From assembly GCA_026874595.1 (NCBI GenBank), contig CM049308.1, forward strand, positions 17,730,001 to 17,794,000: DNA of 64,000 bases, read 5' to 3'. Shown piece by piece: positions 2,196 through 64,000 of the stretch. This stretch comes from Sipunculus nudus (Eukaryota > Annelida > Sipuncula > Golfingiida > Sipunculidae). Numbering within the stretch: the first letter of the stretch is position 1; every line of letters begins with the position of its first letter. Position numbers and translations under genes: made by a program. The notes below the pieces were generated by a model that was given only the letters and a program-made list of their open reading frames with translations, was not told where the DNA came from and searched no databases.

Positions 2196-2508
2196 CTCTG
2201 TTGTATATACAGAACCACAGGCCTCTGCCGATATTTATCTACGGTCTGTGCAGCACTTTTTGTGACCCAATGTGTTGGGTGCAGGTCCTAGTGATCGGAC
2301 CACTGGTTACACACGTTTTTGTTTCAGCCTACTTTCCGGGGTGGCATGTATTATGGACCAGGAGGTTAGCAGTGGTGTAACACATGCACACCGCTGACTG
2401 AAACAATCACGGCGGTTCACTGGTACAGGAATCCAACACACGGGGTCACAAGTGCTGCGCAGAAGGTAAATGTACGCAGAGGCCTGTGGCTCTGTGTATA
2501 TTACAGAG
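2196..2508. mobile_element. Long-TIR hairpin MITE, 313 bp
   Basis: Nearly the whole element is one inverted repeat. The left arm (from CTCTGTTGTATATACAGAAC, 2196) matches the reverse complement of the right arm (ending near 2508) over about 80 bp, sharing CCACAGGCCTCTGC, GCAGCACTT and GTGTTGG. Weaker pairing continues inward (TTGTTTCAG against CTGAAACAA). The loop near 2330-2395 is unpaired. There is no coding capacity. Confidence 0.85.
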
Positions 2509-2636
2509 CCACGCCTATACTGGGGCTACACACTGGTACGTACTGGTCCGATCAAACCAAAAACCACGTGTGAAATACTGAGGAAAAAATCAACTGGTTA
2601 CACAATTGGGCAGCTGTTTGGTGATAATAAATATTT

Positions 2637-2640
<4 letters not shown>

Positions 2641-2677
<37 letters not shown>
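2641..2677. repeat. (TA)n microsatellite
   Basis: Uninterrupted TA dinucleotides. Confidence 0.98.
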
Positions 2678-2679
<2 letters not shown>

Positions 2680-3599
2680 GACTGAAGGAAACAATATTTA
2701 TGCATACTCAAAACGTCCTGAGACCTTAACAGATATAACGAGTAGAGAAATCAGTAGTTGGATCAGGACAAATTAATAAACATTAACCGGACTGAGGAGA
2801 AGGCAACAACTTGATGACCAGCAAACAATGACCCAAAGGGGATACAAAAAAATGCAGGTAATTGGCCAGATGAGGTGATAACCCCTTCCAATAACCAGAG
2901 TTGTCAGTGATAATTTTAATTAAAGAACTTGGTCATCCAATTTTGCCCCAATGTTGCATACAGAGAAGGAATATATCTGGGGCGGATGGACGTACATTAT
3001 TATACTCAAATCAAATATTTAAAGATGTCTTTAAAAAGGGCTTTAACACGCTTTAATGACTTTATTTAAAGTGCTGTAAACTGGTCAAAAACCTCCTAAA
3101 ATTGTCAGAAACGGAGATAAGCGACACCATTCTTTCACCAAGATCAATATATATGCAAAATTAAGTGAGAATTCTTACAGCCTTTAGTGAAATGAATTAT
3201 CCATTGTGTCTGATTTCAATGAAAATGGGCACGATAAAAATATTGTTTAAAAGGCCATAACACTCAGAAGAGTTCAGTTACTTATTGGCCCACACAAAAC
3301 GCACATAAAATTATCCAAATGTAGATGAAGCTGCCAATTTCTTTTGTCGCGTTCTTGGCCCATTTTACATCTAAATACGAAATTTTTGGAGTATTGTCCA
3401 GCCATTCTTGAGATAAGCTGCTAATGTCAACAGACAGACGACAGGTCATCTGAGACAAGCTACTATTCTCGACATTAAACATTTAATTCAAAAGGTGTAT
3501 GGCTTTTACGTGCATTTTACATACAAATCTATATGATGACTGTGTACTCGAATATAGTAACAAATGCGCACGCCGTGAAGATTGACTTGGTTGACTCTC
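2680..3599. other. Non-coding DNA without recognised features
   Basis: AT-rich. Short open frames here resemble nothing known. Confidence 0.5.
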
Positions 3600-3970
3600 T
3601 TGTATAATAATTGTCGGGAGCACAGTACGCTCTTTACACAGCGTTTTACCTAAAGCCTACTACCTATATCGTAAGCGCTGTTTGTTTTGACCTCGTATCC
3701 TGAATCGCTACACCAGAGGGGAGCACTGTATCTTGGTCCAATCAGATGAGACCCTGTGCTGGAAGACAAAACGGTTTACCAGCCAAGCGAGGAATAGGGA
3801 ACTGCATTACGGAGCCGATGTTGTTCATTTCGTTTTGAGTGACAGCTCATCGCTCCTGCAACCCTTTGAACAGGCCACAGACTCAGAGAGAATGGCCCTA
3901 CACGTGGTTTCTGGGCGGAGCCTGATGCCTGCCGAGTGTTTGTTGACTGGCATTTGATTGGCGGCTAGTC
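3600..3970. promoter_or_regulatory. Promoter-like stretch with CCAAT and GC boxes
   Basis: GC- and CpG-richer than its surroundings. It holds CCAATCAG near 3738, an inverted CCAAT (GATTGGCGG) near 3955 and a GC box (GGGCGGAGC) near 3914. It could be an upstream YIF1 promoter spliced to the acceptor at 5980, or the start of a divergent gene beyond the left edge. No donor or coding exon confirms either. Confidence 0.3.
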
Positions 3971-6663: not shown

Positions 6664-9600
6664 ACATGAATGTTATTAGGCTTACCTTTGAGATGCATGT
6701 CTATCTAATCAGTATAGTGCCAATTGTCTTAAAGCACCGTATTAGTAATTTAATTTTTCTTTTAATCAAAGTTCTAGTAACTTTTGCCTATTTTGACACC
6801 ACATTAGTCTCACTGAAAATGTTTAAGATGAAATCAGTGGTATGGTAATTACTGAAACAACCTACCAGGGTACAGGTGCCAGTCCAGTTTAACTGTCTGG
6901 GCTTTAACTTGTATTCTGAGCCAAGAGCTGATTGCACCAGTCTGAGCTCTGAGCGGTGTCTGGACATTTCGGTCCCATGCCATTTCGGTCCTGGGGCCGA
7001 TTGAGGTTTGCCAATTGCCCTTTCAGTCCCGCGTGGTTGCCGTTTCGGTCTCGCCCATATATCACGTCTGCCAAATCGGTCCCGCTTCGTTTTTCATTAT
7101 TATACAGATAAATTCACTCCTGTCCCACCCCTTTGATCTACTTCTAAACACAGTGATAGTACACATATTTTATAATAATAAATCAAAAGCACTTTGATCA
7201 AATGAGGTGAACCAGTCTCAAAGTTGTTTATTCTCAAAGATATAAGGTCACGATCCTAGAGAAAAAGATTTTCTGTCAAATGCATAAAAGTTTTCAATGA
7301 AATGGAAAAATCAACGTCATCAGCTGTGAAAACGAATAATTCTCTAACAAAAACTTAAAAAGGTAGCTATTATTTCAAGTGAATAATTAAACATTAAAAT
7401 AATTAATCCAGTTAGCATGTTGATAAAAAAATAGAATTTCTTAGGTATATTTGTGCTGGCTATAACTTGTGCATGTAACATCTCTTTCGGGACCGATTTG
7501 GCAGATGCGATATCTGGCGGGACCGAAACGGCAACCACACGGGACTGAAACGGTAATTGGCAAACCTCAATCGGCCCCGGGACGGAAATGGCATGGGACC
7601 GAAATGTCTTGTATTCTTCTGAGCATATTGGCACAAAACCAGAGCTCACTGATGAGGTGCCAAGAGTCTACTGATAAGGACTCTCAGCCAGTTTATCAAG
7701 TAATGTTGAAATCTCTTACTCTTCATGTGCTACTTTAAATTAGTTCTCATGATCCAAATATATAAATTTTCAAAATGATTAAACAACTAGAAAAATGGCA
7801 ATGCAAAAATACAAATCTATATTTCTTTTAAATTTTTTTTCACACAATTGTAATATAATTGTCAGGGGTAACTCTGCAACTCATTGTTTTAAACTTTGAT
7901 GTTAAATGCATTGAAATTAAAATCAATGTCAGTATAAAAACTGAAAAACTTAATTGTTTAAAGAACTTTGTTCTAGAAATAGTTAACTGTCTAATGTCCC
8001 AGCTGTCCCTGTCAGCGGTTGTATCGATAGAAGTACTTGAGAGAGGATTTTGTAAACAATAGCAATTATTAAACTATGTTTATCACTTGAAAGAATAAAT
8101 ACCCAAGTTTTGGTCACTTAAACTGCCAAAATACTCGATACTTTACCAGCTTTTATCACAAGGGGGAGTGGAAATAAGATTTCCTTATTTCCACTCCCGG
8201 GGAGTGGAAATAAGGCCTGCCATTTTTAAATTATAAAAAAAAAATAAAATGTATAATTATATCCAGTGTCCAGATACCTTTATAAATAAGCAATCAAATC
8301 AAGGGATTTGTCAAATACCAAGTGCACATATTGCAGGCTTTTATATCTACTTTTCAATCAATGCTCAAAGAATATATTGGTGAAACAAATAGAAAAGTGA
8401 TTTGAAGTGATAACGTAGAGAATATGTTACTGGTCAGTATAGTCTGAGGAGCCAGGGGTAAGGAAAGCCTATTGTGAATACAAAGCTAAAGATACCTTAA
8501 TTAGGATTATTAATTAAAGATTCTTGAACATTTCATACTTATACAGACACTGGAAGGTCCTGCGCCTTTGCCGGCAATAAGCAATCTTAAATCCCAGTAC
8601 TGGAGGTTACATTGCTTGAATTAAATAACAGATCAAATTTTGCTCCCTCTGCGTTCCTCCTTCATAGACTTGCTATGACATAAAACTATTTTATTGTAGA
8701 CGTATCTGTTGCCAGCAAAACGGATACCAGCTCTGTGCACTGGGGTTGCTGGGCCGGTGAGCTGACAGTCAATTCAAAATGTAACAACATTGACTCTGGA
8801 CACTCCTCACTGGGCTAGTATCCAATTTGCTGGTAACAGATACATGCCTATGATAAAGAAGTCTTAATGTATTAATAGGTCTATGAAGCGTGGAATGCAG
8901 ATAGAGCAAAATTTGACCTATGATTTAGTAAGAGTAAGGTTACATCTCAGTCCACTTTTCATTATAACCCTGAGGTTAATGACAGGTGTCCACAATACTG
9001 AGGTCAGAGGTGCCCGTTAGGACTTCAGGAGACTGTTTACTTGGCTATATATTACCTTATCTGACTGTTTAGCCTTGCAGTTTAAGAGAACATTTTTGTT
9101 TTCATTCCTTTACTGAACAGGAGTCTTCTATTGCTGTTTTGCTATTCATGTTTTGCTAGAATGCTGCATGAACTTTCATTTTCTGTTTATCTGATGGTAG
9201 GCAAGCTGTTGTTGTGTTGTACATTGTGAAACATGCAGTAGTCCTGAATTTTGTTGTGTTCCTGTAGCAGTGGATTGTCATGTTTTTGACACAAGCCTTG
9301 AGTTTTTTTTTTAAGCAGTAGGGTTTGCGTTTGAGCTGGGTAAAACCTAGTTTATCCAACCCAGTGAGTAAAACCTGGGTTAAACCTGTTTTCTCAGGAT
9401 TTACCCAAGGTTTTGCCCAGTTTATTACTCAAGCTTTTCCCCCATGTTTATTTACTTTTATCAAGCAGGACTGAAGCCTAGTTTCTGATTGGTCAGAAGA
9501 AGTTGTATACACATTTTTAAATATTGGGAGCAAGCCAAGTGGCTCTGACACATCACCCCTGTCTAAAAGAAAGCATTGACTGCAGACACTCTAACTCCTG

Positions 9601-43800: not shown

Positions 43801-43972
43801 TACCAATTGAAACAGTCTACAATAGGTTTTTGAATATTTTATGACATACACATAAAGTATCAAACTTGCACAAAATATGTATTGATTAGGGTAGCAGAAA
43901 ATAACTAGTGAATGAAGGGAGCATGACAAATATTTTATGCCCAGTATATTATGTTCTGTTTATTAATTTGTT
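40830..43972. other. PACS intron 1
   Basis: AT-rich; no gene or clear repeat recognised. Confidence 0.5.
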
Positions 43973-44041
43973 CAGTGGCGTCAATTTTTCTTCCAGGGTG
44001 GGGGGGGGGGGTGACTTTGTATATATATATATATATATATA

Positions 44042-46025
44042 TGTCAAGGCCCAGATCGCGATCTGGACGGATCTTAGATCTGTCCAGCCCAAATTGCGAT
44101 CGCAGTTCAGGCCGGCCCAAACTGCGATCGCAATCCAGGCTGGCCAGAACTTAGATCTGTCCAGCCTAGATTGCGATCGCAGTTTAGTCCGGCCAAAACT
44201 GCGATCCTTCTTTCTTGCTTCAGGATTGCAATCTGGTCTGGACAGATCTAAGATCAGTCCAGCCGAGATTGCGATCCTAAACTTGACCAGCCCATATTGC
44301 GATCCATGCTTTTACGATCACAGGAGTGAAACATTGGTTGTTTTACCAACTCATTTGGTATTGCATTGTACCATTTTCCCATAATAAATACAATTATAAT
44401 ACAGAAAGGCAATTTTCACTCCTTCATATCACAGGAGTGAAACATGGGATGTTTCACCAACTCATTTAGTATTGCATGGTTGTTGAAAAAAGGTAACAAG
44501 GAAACCATGGGTTTTATATGCTCACAAAATATGATTTGAAAGAGGAGGTAGCAAGTGCAGGTTTTGTGTGGTAATATAAGCTGCATTATGAGCTGATGGT
44601 GTTTAACTCAAGTTATGTAAGACTATGATAATATCCTTGGAGACAGGGAAGAGGATTGATGTCATTTATATTATTTACAGTTGGAATGGTGTGCTGTTTT
44701 CACATAGGTTTTGACTTGGCCATATAACTTTATCTACATTGCAGTAGAATTATTTGAAAAAAACCTGTCCATTATCAGTCATGGTAATTCTGATTTTTAC
44801 AAATGAGAACTTTAATTTAATAATTACTGGTTATTCCTACCCAAGAATAAAACTTAAATAATATAACTGTTTATTATAAATTAATAAATATTGTGTCAAA
44901 TATAATTTAAATTAAAAATAATAACAGCATCATATGAAAAGATCTTTTAATAATATAATTGAAATAAATGATTATTAAAATAATATTATAGAATATATTC
45001 ATGAATACATTCATGATTACATTTTGAAAGTATTTGCATTTGTATACAAATACTTTCATTTATACCTGTATTCCTATTTTTATGCATGAAATTATGGAGT
45101 ACATATATTCATATTCGCATTCAAATGTTTTTGCAAAGTATTCTTATCATGTCTGGTATTTATTCAGTTTCAGCAAAACAAAGTTCTTGAGAATCCAGAA
45201 TTTACAAATTTCACAAATTGATCATAAGTATGATCATAAACCTGGTTTTATGGCTTTAATTTATATTTAAACATGAAACTATTATATTCACTTTGGACTA
45301 CTTTCACAGCAATCTAAGCACTAGACATAGCAAAGGTCTTATGACAATTATCAACATTACAGAAATCTTAACAAGAACTTGTCTAAGATCTGATTTTTTA
45401 TCATATTTAAAAATTTTTATTTAGAAAAATGTAAAAAATTTAAAAGAAATCTCAGCTATGAAACCATTTTAAGAATAAAAAATAACTCAAGCATAAGAAC
45501 ACCCTATAAATTGTACAAGGAGAAAACTAGAGATGGGCAAGTTTAATTTTATTAACATAAATTGAGGAACCAGCAATACAGATTTTGATTATTTACATAG
45601 TCTTGTGACAGCTGATACAGCCACGAGTCTTAATATTATTAGTGAAACATATTGACATATTTAATCAGTACTTGTCTGAGTAAAATTTTAAAATTTTGAC
45701 ATATTTTACTTTTTTAAATTTTAAAATAACTATAAATTAACAAGCTGAAACACTTGGATCGCATTGATCGCAATATGGGCTGGTCAAGTTTAGGATCGCA
45801 ATCTTGACTGGACAGATCTTAGATCTGTCCAGTCCAGATTGTGATCCTGAAGCAAGAAAGACAAGATCGCAATCCTGGCCAGACTAAACTGCGATCGCAA
45901 TATAGGCTGGACAGATCTAAGATCTGGCCAGCCTGGATTGCGATCGCAGTTTGGGCCGGCCTGAACTGCGATCGCAATTTGGGCTGGACAGATCTAAGAT
46001 CCGTCCAGATCGCAATCTGGGCCTT

Positions 46026-46029
<4 letters not shown>
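44042..46029. mobile_element. Palindrome-chain element A, 264-bp inverted arms
   Basis: Begins TGTCAAGGCCCAGATCGCGA and ends with the inverse GGGCCTTGACA. The left arm 44042-44305 and right arm 45766-46029 are inverted copies of equal length. Each arm is a chain of short palindromes centred on GATC (CAGATCGCGATCTG, GCGATCGC, AGATCTAAGATC), separated by CCAGCC/GGCTGG/GGCCGG linkers. The 1.46-kb middle is AT-rich and non-coding. (TA)n tracts flank both ends. Open frames through the arms are artefacts. Confidence 0.85.
44322..44475 (+). repeat. Local direct repeat inside element A
   Basis: CACAGGAGTGAAACAT and CCAACTCATTT(G/A)GTATTGCAT occur twice, about 101 bp apart. Confidence 0.8.
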
Positions 46030-46085
<56 letters not shown>

Positions 46086-51051: not shown

Positions 51052-51179
51052 CAGAGATTTCTTTTGGACACAATAACTCAAAAAATATTTCACGGATCTT
51101 TACCAAACTTGGTATATGTATAGATATGGGTGAGAGGACGACGCCTATTTAAAATGAGGTCATGACCTCAACTAGGAGA

Positions 51180-52700
51180 GTGACCTTGACCTTGAACAGG
51201 GTCAATTTTAGGGAAAATCACACAAATTCTTAAATATCTCAAGAAAACTTGCATGGATTGATCCCAAAATCAAGTTGATCAAAGATCATGGATAGGGTTG
51301 TCATGTTCCAGAAACTGGTGGCGCCACCTATTATTCTTTACTTGTTTTCATGCCGTTTAATATCCCCAAAATTGCTACTTGACAGTACTGTGAGCATTAT
51401 AAGTCAAAAACTAATGGACAGATTTCTTTCATATTATGCAGATACATAGATATGGGTTATGGGATGATGTTTATTTAAATTGGGGTCATGACCTTTCCTA
51501 TGAGAGTGGCCTTGACCTTGAATATTGCCATATATGGTGAAAATCACACAAAATCATTAATATCTCAATAAGGGATGCATTGATTGGTCCAAAAATCAAC
51601 TTGACCGAAGATCTTGGATAGTAATGTCATGTACCGGAAACAGGTGGCGCCACCTGTTATTCTTTTACTTGTTTTTGTGCCGTTTAATACCCCATCATTG
51701 CCCTTAACAGTACATTTATAACCTGTGAGCATTATAAGTCAAAAACTAATGGACAGATTTCTTTCATATTATGCATATACATAGACATGGGTTATGGGAT
51801 GATGTATATATAAATTGGGGTCATGACCTTTCCGATTAGAGTGGCCTTGACCTTGAATATTGCCATATATGGTGAAAATTACACAAAATCATTAATATCT
51901 CAATAAGGGATGCATGCATTGGTCCAAAAATCAACATGTTCTAAGATCTTGGAAAGTATTGTCATGTACCGGAAACAGGTGGCGCCACCTGTTATTCTTT
52001 TACTTGTTTTGTGCCGTTTAATACCCCATCATTGCCATTTATCAGTACTGTGAGCATTATTAGTCAAAAACTAATGGACAGATTTCTTTCATATTATGCA
52101 GATACATAGATATGGGTTATGGGATGATGTTTATTTAAATTGGGGTCATGACCTTTCCTATGAGAGTGGCCTTGACCTTGAAGATTGCCATATATGGTGA
52201 AAATCACACAAACTCATTAATTTCTCAATAAGGGATGCATGCATTGGTCCAAAAATCAACTTGACCGAAGATCTTGGATAGTAATGTCATGTACCGGAAA
52301 CAGGTGGCGCCACCTGTTATTCTTTTACTTGTTTTCGTGCCGTTTAATACCCCATCATTGCCACTTAACAGTACATTTATAACCTGTGAGCATTATAAGT
52401 CAAAAACTAATGGACAAATTTCTTTCATATTATGCATATGCATGGATATGGGTTATAGGATAATGTTTATTTGAATAGGGGTCATGACCTTTCCAATGAG
52501 TGGCCTTGACCTTGAATATTGCCATATATGGTGAAAATCACACAAAATCATTAATTTCTCAATAAGGGATGCATTGATTGGTCCAAAAATCAACTTGAAT
52601 GAAGATCTTGGATAGTGTTGTCATGTACGGGAAACAGGTGGTGCCACCTGTTATTCTTTTACTTGTTTTCGTGCCGTTTAATACCCCATCATTGCCACTT
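51180..52700 (+). repeat. 330-bp tandem array with 20-bp palindromes
   Basis: Five units, anchored by AACAGGTGGCGCCACCTGTT at 51639, 51974 and 52299 (perfect) and variants at 51312 and 52633. Spacings are 327, 335, 325 and 334. Each unit also has GGTCATGACCTTTCC and a GCCTTGACCTTGA block. Confidence 0.92.
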
Positions 52701-53143
52701 AACAGTACTGTGAGCATTATAAGTCAAAAACTAATGGACAGATTTCTTGCATATACATAAACATGGGTTAGGGGATGATGTATATTGAAATTTGGATCAT
52801 GACCTTTTCTATGAGAATGACCTTTTCTATGAGTGTGGTCTGATTGTGGCTGAAGATGGGGGGCCTATTCTTAAAGGGGGGGGGGATTAATTCTCTGGCG
52901 ATACTATGGCACCTGCGGTGCCAAGAAATATCTAGTTGTTACAAGTACTTTTGATCTAACATAAGCAAAAAGATAGGTTTGAACAGTGATAATTATCAAG
53001 ATATGAGATATATATCACTTGATTAAACAATGACGTAAGCAGTATCAGTAATCTATATACCTACACTTAATCTCAAGATCACACTTGTACTGAGCTTTTA
53101 ATATGAGAAGGCAGAATTTGACTTCCTAGTTACAGATATTGTA

Positions 53144-53693
53144 CATACACATATTGGGTGAATGTTTATTTGTTGGTGTAAAAACAGAATAATATAAAAC
53201 ATAGTAATAATTACAAAGCCTTGCTGGTGCTGTGTACATACATATATTGTACATATCTCTTGTGATACCCATATGATTGAATGACAGATGAGTAATACAT
53301 CTATTTTTTTGTAGCTATCAGTCTTGTTGCTATAAATAAATTCTGTCCTGTCAATCAAACTAATGGCTTACATCATGTCTGACATAGCATTTTTGCTTTA
53401 TCACAATGATCCTGGAGCATGTAACATAATTAAGGTCTTGTTTTTCCATAAATCTTTTGCCGGAAGTCAGCAACATCTTTTATAAGGAGGATATCAAAAT
53501 GTTTTCTTGTTATAGCTTGTAAAGACTTGTAAAGACTCATGTATTCAACTATTGGATGATATCTTAATATGGAGCTGGTAAAATATAGCAAATGCTGCAC
53601 CAGTTACAGTGTTCACAAAAAAAACTTTCTGGGTTACTTGTGGGTGTGGATATTGCAACAGCTTGTAAAAGTACTGCAGTTTTAGATATTCCT
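53144..53693. other. PACS intron 1
   Basis: No feature recognised. Confidence 0.5.
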
Positions 53694-54643
53694 GTCAAGG
53701 CCCTGACCCCGATCTGGACCAGATTGGTCCAGAAAGAATCCCGATCGGGATTGAGTCCTGCTTAAACCCTGATCGGGATTTGGGCTAAACCATTGCTGGA
53801 CCAGATCCCGATCAGGGTTTCGGCCAGACTGAATCCTGATCGGGATTAGGCCTGAACCAGTCATTGATTGGCCTGGACCAATTCCCGATTGGTCCAAACC
53901 AAATTCCAAGCAAGATTCTGACCAGTCCAAACCCTGATCAGGATCTGGTTCAGCCCAAATCCTGATTCAGACTGTGAGTTGACATATTACTAAATAAAGG
54001 CTCTAGCACATACTTCTGCATAAATTAAGGACCTTTCACCTTAGTTCTGCTACTCTTGACAAAGTTTTATACATACTAAACTTCAAATGCACAGTTAGTT
54101 TAACAAGTGAATATTAGCAGGACTTGTACCTGACATGAATTAATTAATGGAATAAAAGAATACTAAGTACTGACTTTTGTGGCACATGTTTACCTTTGGA
54201 AAAAATCAAAATATGTTAAATGTGATAAATAAGAATTTTTCTGGCTTGTATAACCTGTTTGCATCATGTATGTATGAATCAAAATAATTAATTTCTGTAT
54301 CTCAAATAAATAAAATCATAAATATAAATAATTTTAAATTAATTTGATAATTAAAAAGAGCCTTGTGGACAAAAAGTTATTGCAAGTAGATTATGTATCT
54401 AAAATAAACAAAAATAAAAATAATTTTAAATTGATTTACTGTAACTGTATCTCATTACTAAGCAAGTAGATACAGTTATGAGCTGGATCAGGGGTATGGG
54501 TTGCCATAACCTTTAACTGATTACACAGGAAATCATTCTCTTTGTTATTAGTTGAAGATTGGGAATAAGGCAGCACTGAATCCCGATCGGGATTTGTTCC
54601 TGACCAATCGCTGATTTGTCCAGATTGGAATCTGGGAGTTGAC
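53694..54643. mobile_element. Palindrome-chain element B, copy 1
   Basis: Starts TGTCAAGGCCCTGA, nearly the same terminus as element A, and ends ...GAGTTGACA. The left zone (53694-53982) is a chain of ATCCCGATCGGGATT-type palindromes with TTTGGGC/GGACCAG linkers; a shorter right zone (about 54573-54643) carries the same motif. The 590-bp AT-rich middle matches the copy at 62923. No coding capacity; the long open frame at 53682-53930 is the palindrome chain. Confidence 0.78.
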
Positions 54644-54892
54644 ATTCCCATACATTAAAAAATAGACCCTGACTTCACGTGTAGAAATCTATTAATGTTC
54701 TCCTATTTATTCAATCTACATAGTAAATTTGGCCTGATCAGTGCTATTGTAAATATATTGTATAAATTACCAGTCAATTATATAGTACAGTGAACCTGTT
54801 TATACTGAAGTTAAACATTTTTTCTGTGGCAGTAACTGGTAATCCCACCTTGAAACTGCAATGCTTATGCCAGGACATTTATACAGTAATTC

Positions 54893-54926: not shown

Positions 54927-55146
54927 GTAGAGTGAACCGGTTCTTATAGCAGGGGTAAAGTTTAAATTTCTCACCAGTACCAAAGTGTATTTCATACAAC
55001 AGGAGACATTGTATCTCAAAGGAGTACTTGGCTTTGAAGTACTCTTGATACTAAGAATAACTTACTTTAATCTGTAGGTCTTAAATAAGTCTGCTTTGTT
55101 TTTATTGATTTTCCTGCAAGGTATGGAGAAGTGAAGATTTAGAAGC

Positions 55147-57428
55147 TGTGTACTGTTACTGTATGTCATTAGCCACTCATCATGAAACCTGTACACCATA
55201 ACTGTATCTCATTAGCCACTCTGTCATGGAAACTGTTTCCTGTTACTGTATCTTATTAGCCACTTGGTCATGGAAACTGTTTACTGTTACCGTATTTCAT
55301 TAGCCATTCAGTCATTGAAACTGTTCACTGTTACCATATTTTATTAGCCCCTTAGTCATGGAAACTGTTAACTGTTACCGTATTTCATTAGCCACACAGT
55401 CATGGAAACTGTTTACTGTTACTGTATCTCATTAGCCACTTGGTCATGGAAACTGTTTACTGTTACCGTATTTCATTAGCCATTCAGTCATTGAAACTGT
55501 TCACTGTTACCATATTTTATTAGCCCCTTAGTCATGGAAACTGTTAACTGTTACCGTATTTCATTAGCCACACAGTCATGGAAACTGTTTACTGTTACTG
55601 TATCTCATTATCCACTCATTCATGAAACCTGTTTACTGTTACTGTATCTCATTATCCACTCATTCATGAAACCTGTTTACTGTTACTGTATCTCATTAGC
55701 CACTTGGTCATGGAAACTGTTTACTGTTACTGTATCTCATTAGCCACTTGGTCATGGAAACTGTTTACTGTTACCGTGTTTCATTAGCCACTCAGTCATT
55801 GAAACTGTTCACTTTTACCATATTTTATTAGCCCCTTAGTCATGGAAACTGTTAACTGTTACCGAATATCATTAGCCCCTTAGTCATGAAAACTGTTTCC
55901 TGTTACTGTATCTCATTATCCACTCATTCATGAAACCTGTTTACTGTTACTGTATCTCATTATCCACTCATTCATGAAACCTGTTTACTGTTACTGTATC
56001 TCATTATCCACTCATTCATGAAACCTTTATGAAGTTACTGTATCTCATTAGCCACTTGGTCATGGAAACAGTTTACTGTTACTGTATCTCATTAGCCACT
56101 TGGTCATGGAAACTGTTTACTGTTACTGTATTTCATTAGACACTCAGTCATGAAACCTGTTTACTGTTACTGTATCTCATTAGACACTCAGTCATGAAAC
56201 CTGTTTACTGTTACTGTATCTCATTAGACACTTGGTCATGGAAACTGTTTACTGTTACTGTATCTCATTAGGCACTTGGTCATGGAAACTGTTTACTGTT
56301 ACTGTATTTCATTAGACACTCAGTCATGAAACCTGTTTACTGTTACTGTATCTCATTAGACACTCAGTCATGAAACCTGTTTACTGTTACTGTATCTCAT
56401 TAGACACTTGGTCATGGAAACTGTTTACTGTTACTGTATCTCATTAGCCACTTGGTCATGGAAACTGTTTACTGTTACCGTGTTTCATTAGCCACTCAGT
56501 CATTGAAACTGTTCACTTTTACCATATTTTATTAGCCCCTTAGTCATGGAAACTGTTAACTGTTACCGTATATCATTAGCCCCTTAGTCATGGAAACTGT
56601 TTACTGTTACTGTATCTCATTATCCACTCATTCATGAAACTTGTTTACTGTTACTGTATCTCATTATCCACTCATTCATGAAACCTGTTTACTGTTACTG
56701 TATCTCATTATCCACTCATTCATGAAACCTTTATGAAGTTACTGTATCTCATTAGCCACTTGGTAATGGAAACAGTTTACTGTTACTGTATCTCATTAGC
56801 CACTTGGTCATGGAAACTGTTTACTGTTACTGTATTTCATTAGACACTCAGTCATGAAACCTGTTTACTGTTACTGTATCTCATTAGACACTCAGTCATG
56901 AAACCTGTTTACTGTTACTATATCTCATTAGCCACTTGGTCATGGAAACTGTTTACTGTTACTGTATTTCACTAGCAACTCAGTCATAAAACCTGTTTGC
57001 TGTTACTGTATTTCACTAGCCACTCAGTCATGAAACCTGCTTGCTGTTACTGTATTTCACTAGCCACTTGGTCATGGAAACTGTTTACTGTTACTGTATC
57101 TCATTAGACACTCAGTCATGAAACCTGTTTACTGTTACTGTATCTCATTAGCCACTTGGTCATGGAAACTGTTTACTGTTACTGTATTTCACTAGCCACT
57201 CAGTCTTGAAACCTGTTTACTGTTACTGTATTTCACTAGCCACTCAGTCATGAAACCTGTTTGCTGTTACTGTATTTTACTAGCCACTCAGTCATGAAAC
57301 CTGTTTGCTGTTACTGTATTTCACTAGCCACTAAGTCATGAAACCTGTTTGCTGTTACTGTATTTCACTAGCCACTCAGTCATGGAAACTGTTTACTGTT
57401 ACTGTATCTCATTAGCCACTTGGTCATG
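55147..57428 (+). repeat. 44-bp satellite array, about 52 copies, with higher-order repeats
   Basis: The unit reads CATGGAAACTGTTTACTGTT, ACTGTATCTCATTAGCCA, CTTGGT. Copies lie in blocks: four units from about 55223 recur 176 bp later (4 x 44), and a larger block recurs at 704 bp (16 x 44; CCGTG at 55774 and 56478). The unit is not a multiple of three, and frames through it are not genes. There are no unique spacers, so it is not a CRISPR. Confidence 0.97.
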
Positions 57429-62922: not shown

Positions 62923-63520
62923 TCCAGATCCAAATTGGGGTTTAGGCCAAACTGAATCTTGATCAGGATTTGGTCTGTACCATTCACTGATTTGTCTGGA
63001 CCAATTTCTGATTGGTCCACAAAAAAATTCCTGATTGGGATTCTGACCCTTCCAAACCCCTATCAGGATCTGATCCAGCCCATATCCTGATTCAGACTGA
63101 GCTGACATAATACTTAATAATGCCTTCATCACATACTTCTGATTAAATTCTAAAAAAATTACCTTTGTTCAGCCCACTCATAAACTTAAATCTAATTTCG
63201 CCGTGATAAAATTTGATTAATGCCATGCTAAACTTCAAATACATATTGGTAGTTGAACAAGTGAATTTTATTACAACTGATACGTGACATAAATTTATAA
63301 GGAATAAAAGAATACAGATTATTGTGGCACAACTTAACCTGATTAAAAAATTGTAATATGTTGTACTTTATGAATAATATTTTATACTGTCTTGTATTAC
63401 CTACATGCATCATGAATGTATAAATAAAAAAATAAGCAATAAAGTTTTTATAAATATAAACAATTTTTCATTGATTTGATTATTAAAAGAGCCTTGTGGA
63501 CATGAAGCGAGCATGTAGAT
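62923..63520. mobile_element. Palindrome-chain element B, copy 2 (degraded)
   Basis: The palindrome zone (62923-63110; for example CTGAATCTTGATCAGGATTT, CCTGATTCAGACTGAGCTGA) and the following AT-rich body (to GTAGATACAGTTATGAGCT near 63530) match 53800-54480. The palindromes have decayed (CCCGATCGGG to CTTGATCAGG), and the start is truncated. Confidence 0.75.
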
Positions 63521-63530
63521 ACAGTTATGA

Positions 63531-64000
63531 GCTCTGAAAACTCACTAAAAATTCTCTTGTTATTTTCCAGTGTTTTGAAGTTAACATTGGCAGACAACAG
63601 AACCACAGTGTAATTTGATAAACTCAAGAGAGAGACCCCTATTTGTGGAACACTTAGTAATTAATGGTACTTACCTGTAAAGTGATTCAAGCTGATTTGA
63701 AAATTTAGCATCACCTTGTGTTTTGGCCAGAATGGTACACTAGGGATGGATTTTCACATGTAATGATCACTTATAAATACTTACACTAATTTTTTTTCTT
63801 ATTTATCTATATTAATCGGCTACAGTGTTCAATTAAAGGGACATAATCAGGAGCTATATTATGCCTATTCTTTCACAGTATCAGTTAATTTATGCTTCAT
63901 AGTCATACAAAAATTTCCTAGCAACCCCCCCCCCCCCCCAGCACACAGTACCTCCCATGCAGTACCTCCCATAACACTTTTTTATGGTTCTGTGTGTGAG
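63531..64000. other. PACS intron 1, window end
   Basis: A 15-C tract lies at 63925-63939, followed by two copies of CAGTACCTCCCAT. Otherwise nothing. Confidence 0.5.

Follow-up and report, generated by a model that had tools for sequence, protein, structure and literature searches.

Several DNA transposons carry long ends filled with repeats. In En/Spm (CACTA), about 200 bp of subterminal TnpA-site motifs in both orientations are bound by an element-encoded protein, but the ends are CACTA, the duplications are 3 bp long, and the motifs are 12-bp units rather than dyads with swapped cores. The repeats of the MITEs of Donax clams reportedly form internal arrays. In the Foldback-like elements Tetris, Galileo and FB4, non-autonomous copies consist mostly of long inverted arms with repeated modules, as in the family described here, but their arm repeats are about 220 and 140 bp long and their target duplications measure 8-10 bp (Tetris) or 7-8 bp (Galileo), whereas our arms hold 14-16-bp dyads with a 28-bp lag (PMC4079207, PMC4168063, PMC2955051). 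The first-pass annotation of our locus stated that no known family has arms built entirely of palindromes. In the broad sense this is not supported, since the arm repeats of Galileo contain additional transposase sites (PMC4079207) and the hAT element Hermes has quasi-palindromic subterminal repeats, two of which form a quasi-palindrome that two BED domains bind cooperatively with strict spacing (PMC10368747). Unlike in our family, the Hermes motif is AAGT, and the outermost 55 bp of either end contain five copies of the repeat (PMC10368747). Tandem-repeat-containing MITEs of Donax (cited in PMC10294476) are also small elements with tandem repeats, but in our family the dyad arms are separate from the internal minisatellites that three long copies carry.

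The Ginger2/TDD group is of interest for its ends and target. Ginger2 is marked by TGTNR termini, a 4-bp target duplication and an RTATAY target, the duplication being 5 bp in TDD-4 and TDD-5. Terminal inverted repeats in this group are about 50-180 bp long in animals and 260 and 297 bp long in TDD-4 and TDD-5, and the transposase joins an H2C2 zinc finger to an integrase-like DDE domain (PMC2836005). The families described there are coding, unlike ours, and the words "palindrom" and "subterminal" are absent from the main text of that paper, so that arms of arrayed dyads are not reported there under such terms (PMC2836005). Among the matches listed in a search of the open-access literature, with Repbase and Dfam outside its scope, no title or abstract opening described arms built as dyad arrays.

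The window, a stretch of 64,000 nucleotides of the Sipunculus nudus genome, contains a complete non-autonomous DNA transposon of 1,988 bp, element A, at 44042-46029 on the forward strand, recognized by its matching arms and by paired copies elsewhere in the genome. The coordinates and ends given in the first-pass annotation are exact: 44042 on the forward strand and 46029 on the reverse strand both begin TGTCAAGGCCC, with a (TA)n tract on each side. The annotation had also proposed two equal inverted arms of 264 bp. The arms are indeed inverted, but they measure 268 bp on the left (44042-44309, forward) and 269 bp on the right (45761-46029, reverse). The left arm comprises the terminus TGTCAAGGCCCAGAT and an array of dyad sites, as judged from dyad centres, direct lags and folding; the right arm is its inverted copy, as judged from arm alignment and dyad centres. 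Aligned to each other, the arms show 15 mismatches and one 1-bp gap (94% identity), with 4 of the 15 mismatches in the first 150 bp. Element A has a probable 4-bp target duplication, TATA, at 44038-44041 and 46030-46033, which is uninformative inside (TA)n. Between the arms, at 44310-45760 (forward), lies an AT-rich part with no coding seen, which recurs in other A copies. It carries direct repeats at 44317-44369 and 44428-44480 that are 91% identical, and palindromes of at least 10 bp make up 7.9% of it against 2.5% in shuffles, none of 500 reaching the observed value. No open frame of at least 150 aa starting with ATG, GTG or TTG lies inside element A; the frame at 43908-44384 enters from outside. 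Searches of the window with Rfam at the gathering threshold and with a tRNA scan gave no matches.

In the left arm, dyad site 1, CCAGATCGCGATCTGG (44051-44066, found by an exact-palindrome scan), is followed by site 2 (44063-44087, centre 44075), which is GATCTTAGATC with CTGGAC/GTCCAG wings, site 3 (44092-44107, centre 44099.5), which is AATTGCGATCGCAGTT, and the linker palindrome GGCCGGCC (44110-44117, from the same scan). The A arms as a whole contain GCGATCGC-type sites, GATCTTAGATC-type doublets and GGCCGGCC/CTGGCCAG linkers. Dyad centres of the left arm lie at 44058.5, 44075, 44099.5, 44127.5, 44152, 44176.5 and 44250. The first six of the right arm fall at the same arm coordinates, and the seventh lies at 210 rather than 209. 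Each A arm thus has seven centres with at least 6 of 7 pairs, against a mean of 0.6 and a maximum of 4 in 300 base shuffles. Direct self-repeat lags of the left arm are 28, 49 and 77 bp.

Exact palindromes of at least 8 bp cover 26.9% of the left arm and 20.1% of the right, compared with 4.2% and 4.4% after shuffling, and none of 500 dinucleotide shuffles per arm reached the observed value. With the cut-off set at 6 or 10 bp, the value of the right arm was reached by 1 of 500 shuffles and that of the left arm by none. Near-palindromes with at least 7 of 8 pairs cover 24.6% (left) and 30.9% (right) against about 2% in shuffles (0 of 200). Palindromes are thus well above expectation in the arms, but the arms are not made of them entirely, as the annotation had it; the exact ones cover 27% and 20%. 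The annotation had also proposed that each arm can fold into several small cruciforms, which is not supported as the main fold. As a single strand the left arm forms mainly one long hairpin, at -89.3 kcal/mol against -34.8 +/- 3.6 kcal/mol in shuffles (z -15.2).

Element A belongs to an abundant family of small DNA elements. The 15-bp terminus TGTCRAGGCCCAGAT has 1,529 exact copies in the 1.43-Gb assembly (153 contigs) and the reversed pattern none. A matching right end was present at 17 of the 20 A-type places fetched, at lengths from 233 to 6,259 bp, which supports a transposable unit with the ends that the first-pass annotation had named. That annotation had also allowed that, if other full-length copies were lacking, the locus would be a one-off local rearrangement. 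Such copies are present, nothing was found in favour of a rearrangement, and we regard its probability as negligible. Allowing up to two mismatches, the A pattern occurs 1,589 times against 36 for the control, a number that overlaps all subfamilies and is not an A-only count. B-type termini (up to two mismatches) number 114 and D-type termini (up to one mismatch) 559, with none in either control. Seven of the 17 paired A places are 1.5-2.0 kb long, and typical MITEs are smaller than this. The family is otherwise MITE-like in its inverted ends, target duplication, many copies and lack of coding capacity in the copies examined. The A interior, whole or in pieces (main pieces 93-97% identical), is present in 12 of 15 A copies compared; matches are limited to pieces beside the arms in L069 and L081 and to about 60 bp in L079.

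The family falls into at least three subfamilies, A, B and D, which have the terminus, linkers and first dyad positions in common and differ in the palindrome cores. Their termini read TGTC(A/G)AGGCCCAGAT. The dyad cores are GCGATCGC in A, CCCGATCGGG and AATCGSCGATT in B, and CAAAATTTTG and TTTAAA in D. Dam-type GATC methylation was rejected as an explanation, as the D sites are not GATC-centred. Some short forms are nearly all arm, namely L076 (A, 233 bp, with a TATA duplication) and L129 (D, 336 bp), which is consistent with the arms being sufficient for mobility. Both fold into hairpins far better than shuffles (z -15.0 and -20.6). At the other extreme, the long A copies L069, L073 and L081 hold minisatellites with units of 166-336 bp; that of L069 has a 288-bp unit repeated about 12 times. 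Two 4,298-bp loci, L067 and L068, start 4.8 kb apart and have identical end positions. L067 holds two A elements in opposite orientation and L068 two elements, judged from end positions, so that the pair is probably a local duplication of a double insertion. A D-type copy (L132 and L133, G000:C1:32932778-32934922) sits at the centre of a host palindrome, with gtccacgatgTATA on its left flank and TATAcatcgtggac on its right.

Target-site duplications, a check proposed along with the original claim, were sought in 36 paired copies (18 A, 8 B and 10 D, including window elements A and B). A 4-bp duplication was found in 28 of them: 14 of 18 A, 5 of 8 B and 9 of 10 D. By letters, 26 were TATA, one CATA and one TTCC. 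Eleven were unambiguous, and with one flanking base on each side these read GTATAT (3), GTATAC (3), ATATAC (2), ATTCCC (1), GCATAT (1) and TTATAT (1). RTATAY fits 8 of these 11 and 25 of the 36 overall, the other 17 of the 25 lying within ATATAT; the background of RTATAY in the window is 5.7 per kb. The eight pairs without a 4-bp duplication are L066, L077, L079, L081, L115, L118, L123 and L128. L115/L116 show instead a 10-bp match, TACATATATA, in TA-rich flanks.

These duplications speak against several superfamilies. Both piggyBac and Kolobok duplicate TTAA, which is not among the 28. A TA duplication of the Tc1/mariner-like kind is excluded by CATA in L075 and TTCC in element B, which require 4 bp. 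The hAT group was dropped as well, since its elements make 8-bp duplications and those of our unambiguous copies are 4 bp long. Foldback (Mutator-type) and Galileo/P elements duplicate 7-10 bp, a length that none of the 11 unambiguous pairs reaches.

The family agrees with Ginger2/TDD in its TGTNR ends (in 48 of 48 aligned arm starts, always TGTCA in A and B and either TGTCA or TGTCG in D), and also in its 4-bp duplications and RTATAY target (PMC2836005). The A arms, at 268 and 269 bp, fall within the range of TDD-4 and TDD-5 and above that of animal Ginger2 (PMC2836005). The TTCC duplication of window element B, in place of TATA, goes against the Ginger2 marks. Filing the family as Ginger2-type rests on ends and target because no transposase was found in the copies and loci examined. 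In a search for an autonomous copy, no stop-to-stop frame in 11 paired copies exceeded 123 aa, and the longest in L127 had 96 aa. A search with PF17921 (integrase zinc finger) listed 150 of 6,033 candidates, and the three loci read among these were all LTR retrotransposons; no terminus-like 27-mer with more than 18 matches occurred in 30 fetched PF17921 loci. Two of the LTR elements, L097 and L104, are Gypsy-like with the integrase upstream of the reverse transcriptase, an order known from Gmr1-like elements, while L085 has the usual order. The A-array pattern had no match in the bacterial or the viral contig collection, and the B pattern none in the viral contigs. The 56 viral matches to the short terminus seem to be due to chance: when the four window arms were compared with these 56 loci by blastn, the lowest E-value was 0.029 and no alignment exceeded 32 bp.

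Because the sites change on both sides across subfamilies, it is their symmetry and not their sequence that persists. We aligned the first 78 columns of 39 colinear arms (12 A, 9 B and 18 D) with no gap. This left out 27 of 39 A arms, 7 of 16 B arms (L117 left, L119, L120 right, L121, L123 and both window B arms) and 2 of 20 D arms (L130, L131). In a second alignment of 48 rows, the nine omitted B and D arms were restored; four fit gap-free and five need gaps (L119, L120 right, L121, window B left, L130), in keeping with the rearrangement of B arms from copy to copy. In the 39-arm alignment the terminus, CTGG..C and the CCAG/GGCC linkers are near-constant, and the cores differ.

The dyad structure was tested at arm coordinates 17.5, 34 and 58.5, with slides by 1-3 columns and column shuffles as controls. 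Cells were paired in 90.2% of cases in the 39 rows, against at most 50.4% when slid, and in 88.4% against at most 53.9% in the 48 rows. Cells changed on both sides numbered 120 (at most 32 slid, 50.4 shuffled) in the smaller alignment and 144 (at most 35 slid, 58.4 shuffled) in the larger one. Covariation scores were 0.401 (at most 0.145 slid, 0.184 shuffled) and 0.373 (at most 0.167 slid, 0.183 shuffled), and none of 500 column shuffles reached any of the three observed measures in either alignment, although related sequences can exceed shuffles without structure. Two other counts did not exceed the shuffles: pairs changed on both sides (10 against 10.0 in 39 rows, 11 against 10.5 in 48) and further pair types (25 against 26.9 and 30 against 32.1). 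The covariation amounts to a handful of events because the rows represent only three lineages. Pairing is lacking in two places: at the central pair of site 1, in both B and D, and at pair 30/38 of site 2, in D.

Position is kept along with symmetry. When 132 centres were scanned in the three typed subfamily sequences, four covarying pairs occurred only at 34.0 and 58.5, and all other centres gave 0 or 1. In the left arm of A and in L128 left, a D arm, dyad axes correspond at 17.5, 34.0, 58.5, 86.5/86.0, 111/110 and 135.5/134.5; of these, L117 left, a B arm, has those at 34.0 and 58.5. In eight arms, a direct lag of 28 bp was among the five strongest in all eight, 49 bp in six and 77 bp in five. 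Across the same number of arms, neighbouring dyad centres stand a multiple of 3.5 bp (a third of a helical turn) apart in 35 of 60 cases: 21 of 27 for two A and two B arms together, 3 of 6 for the window B arm and 11 of 27 for D. One in seven would be expected, and the spacings are not independent. The suggestion that the palindromes are arrayed sites for a dimeric protein gains indirect support, as the dyads hold position and symmetry while their letters vary between subfamilies.

Taken from sequence patterns, our preferred reading is that the family is probably a non-autonomous Ginger2/TDD-type transposon whose arms are putative arrays of dyad sites bound by a dimeric transposase or a partner protein. 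An autonomous relative would supply the transposase in trans. This enzyme would recognize the constant terminus and cut at TGTC in the manner of a retroviral-integrase-like enzyme, and dimers of the same or a partner protein would bind the dyad sites of the arms, coating and pairing both ends. Subfamilies would have arisen through shifts in the specificity of this protein, with every change in one half-site answered by a change in its partner. The chief rival is that the dyads are a mutational by-product, which we find rather unlikely as a full account. Here the arms fold back during replication or repair and half-sites template each other, arrays grow and turn by unequal exchange, and conversion instead of a binding protein keeps the symmetry. 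The hairpins that arms and short forms form far better than shuffles would fit this, as would the varying unit order of B arms between copies and the fact that the left and right A arms remain about 94% alike. Conversion alone, however, leaves unexplained why A and D have axes at the same arm coordinates and why terminus and linkers are constant while cores change. These fixed axes and constant linkers argue against hairpin-driven mutation as the whole story.

The enzyme could also belong to another integrase-like or unknown superfamily that makes 4-bp TATA duplications, such as IS3EU/GingerRoot or an undescribed group, with the architecture unchanged; we judge this unlikely. It is in keeping with the lack of a transposase in any copy examined, and in IS481EU, where duplications are about 4, 15 or 25 bp, one species has TGT...ACA ends and some families have duplications of about 4 bp, both of which would agree with our family (PMC10045372). 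IS481EU repeats are mostly shorter than 50 bp, however, against our 268-bp arms, and the group is reported from parabasalids (PMC10045372), so IS481EU itself was rejected. Ginger1 targets CCGG or CCGT (PMC2836005), and such duplications occur in 0 of the 36 pairs. TGTNR ends, 4 bp and RTATAY together are marks of Ginger2 (PMC2836005). A role of the arms mainly through RNA or chromatin, with double-stranded RNA or host proteins on the dyads and mobility unrelated, seems very unlikely to us: a duplex of about 268 bp could form from the arms, but nothing in the data calls for such a role, and the target duplications show that the elements moved by transposition.

Within the transposon reading, it is tempting to speculate, though we hold the idea only tentatively, that the arms are an exchangeable address code. 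The fixed scaffold would consist of the constant terminus, the GGCC linkers and dyad axes at fixed arm coordinates, and the cores on it would have changed their letters symmetrically on at least two occasions (GCGATCGC, CCCGATCGGG, AAAATTTT). If so, a subfamily would be mobilised only by a transposase whose DNA-binding domain matches it; cleavage and target choice would stay common, and families would split through their dyad arrays. This touches on why DNA transposons carry long repeat-filled ends and on how their families split in enzyme use. Within one genome, three subfamilies here agree in ends and target and carry symmetrically altered cores at the same positions. Were these transposase docking sites, they would offer a natural series for following how site recognition changes together with the specificity of the transposase, and an example of compensatory evolution at the level of DNA instead of RNA.

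The window holds further relatives of element A. Element B, a 952-bp copy of the second subfamily with the palindrome core CCCGATCGGG, lies at 53693-54644 (forward) and was found by its terminus match. Its left terminus is the same 11 bp as that of A, and its termini are identical to those of A at 24 of 27 (left) and 22 of 27 (right) positions, against at most 19 when the window was base-shuffled 100 times. It is flanked by TTCC at 53689-53692 and 54645-54648. The left arm (53693-53984, forward) contains AATCCCGATCGGGATT-type sites. The short right arm (54570-54644, reverse) is a 74.7% inverted match to the left. The palindrome excess is weaker outside subfamily A: for exact palindromes of at least 8 bp in the B left arm, 22 of 500 shuffles reach the observed value, and for near-palindromes 0 of 200, while in other B left arms the near-palindrome excess is reached by 19 of 200 shuffles (L120 left) and 1 of 200 (L117 left). 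The inner end of the B left arm is a second terminus-like GAGTTGACA (53976-53984), which also stands at the right end of B. The left arm may originally have been a separate short element, although it has no flanking duplication. A decayed fragment of a B-like element, fragment C, lies at 62924-63533 (forward). It is 70.9% identical to B over 628 aligned columns (62924-63520), with an additional 24-bp match at 63510-63533, and its arm part has no palindrome excess over shuffles.

Other repeats in the window stand apart from these elements. An inverted-repeat element with 93-bp arms (6963-7055 and 7516-7608), 94% complementary and with repeated TTTCGGTCC-like motifs seen by eye, is a different family with repeat-filled arms. 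A 335-bp minisatellite at 51120-52824 contains the palindrome AACAGGTGGCGCCACCTGTT. Within the long A copy L081, a 336-bp unit at element coordinates 2379-3939 begins AGGTGGCGCCACC, and minisatellites may travel inside A-type elements. A 44-bp minisatellite of 52 copies occupies 55142-57428.
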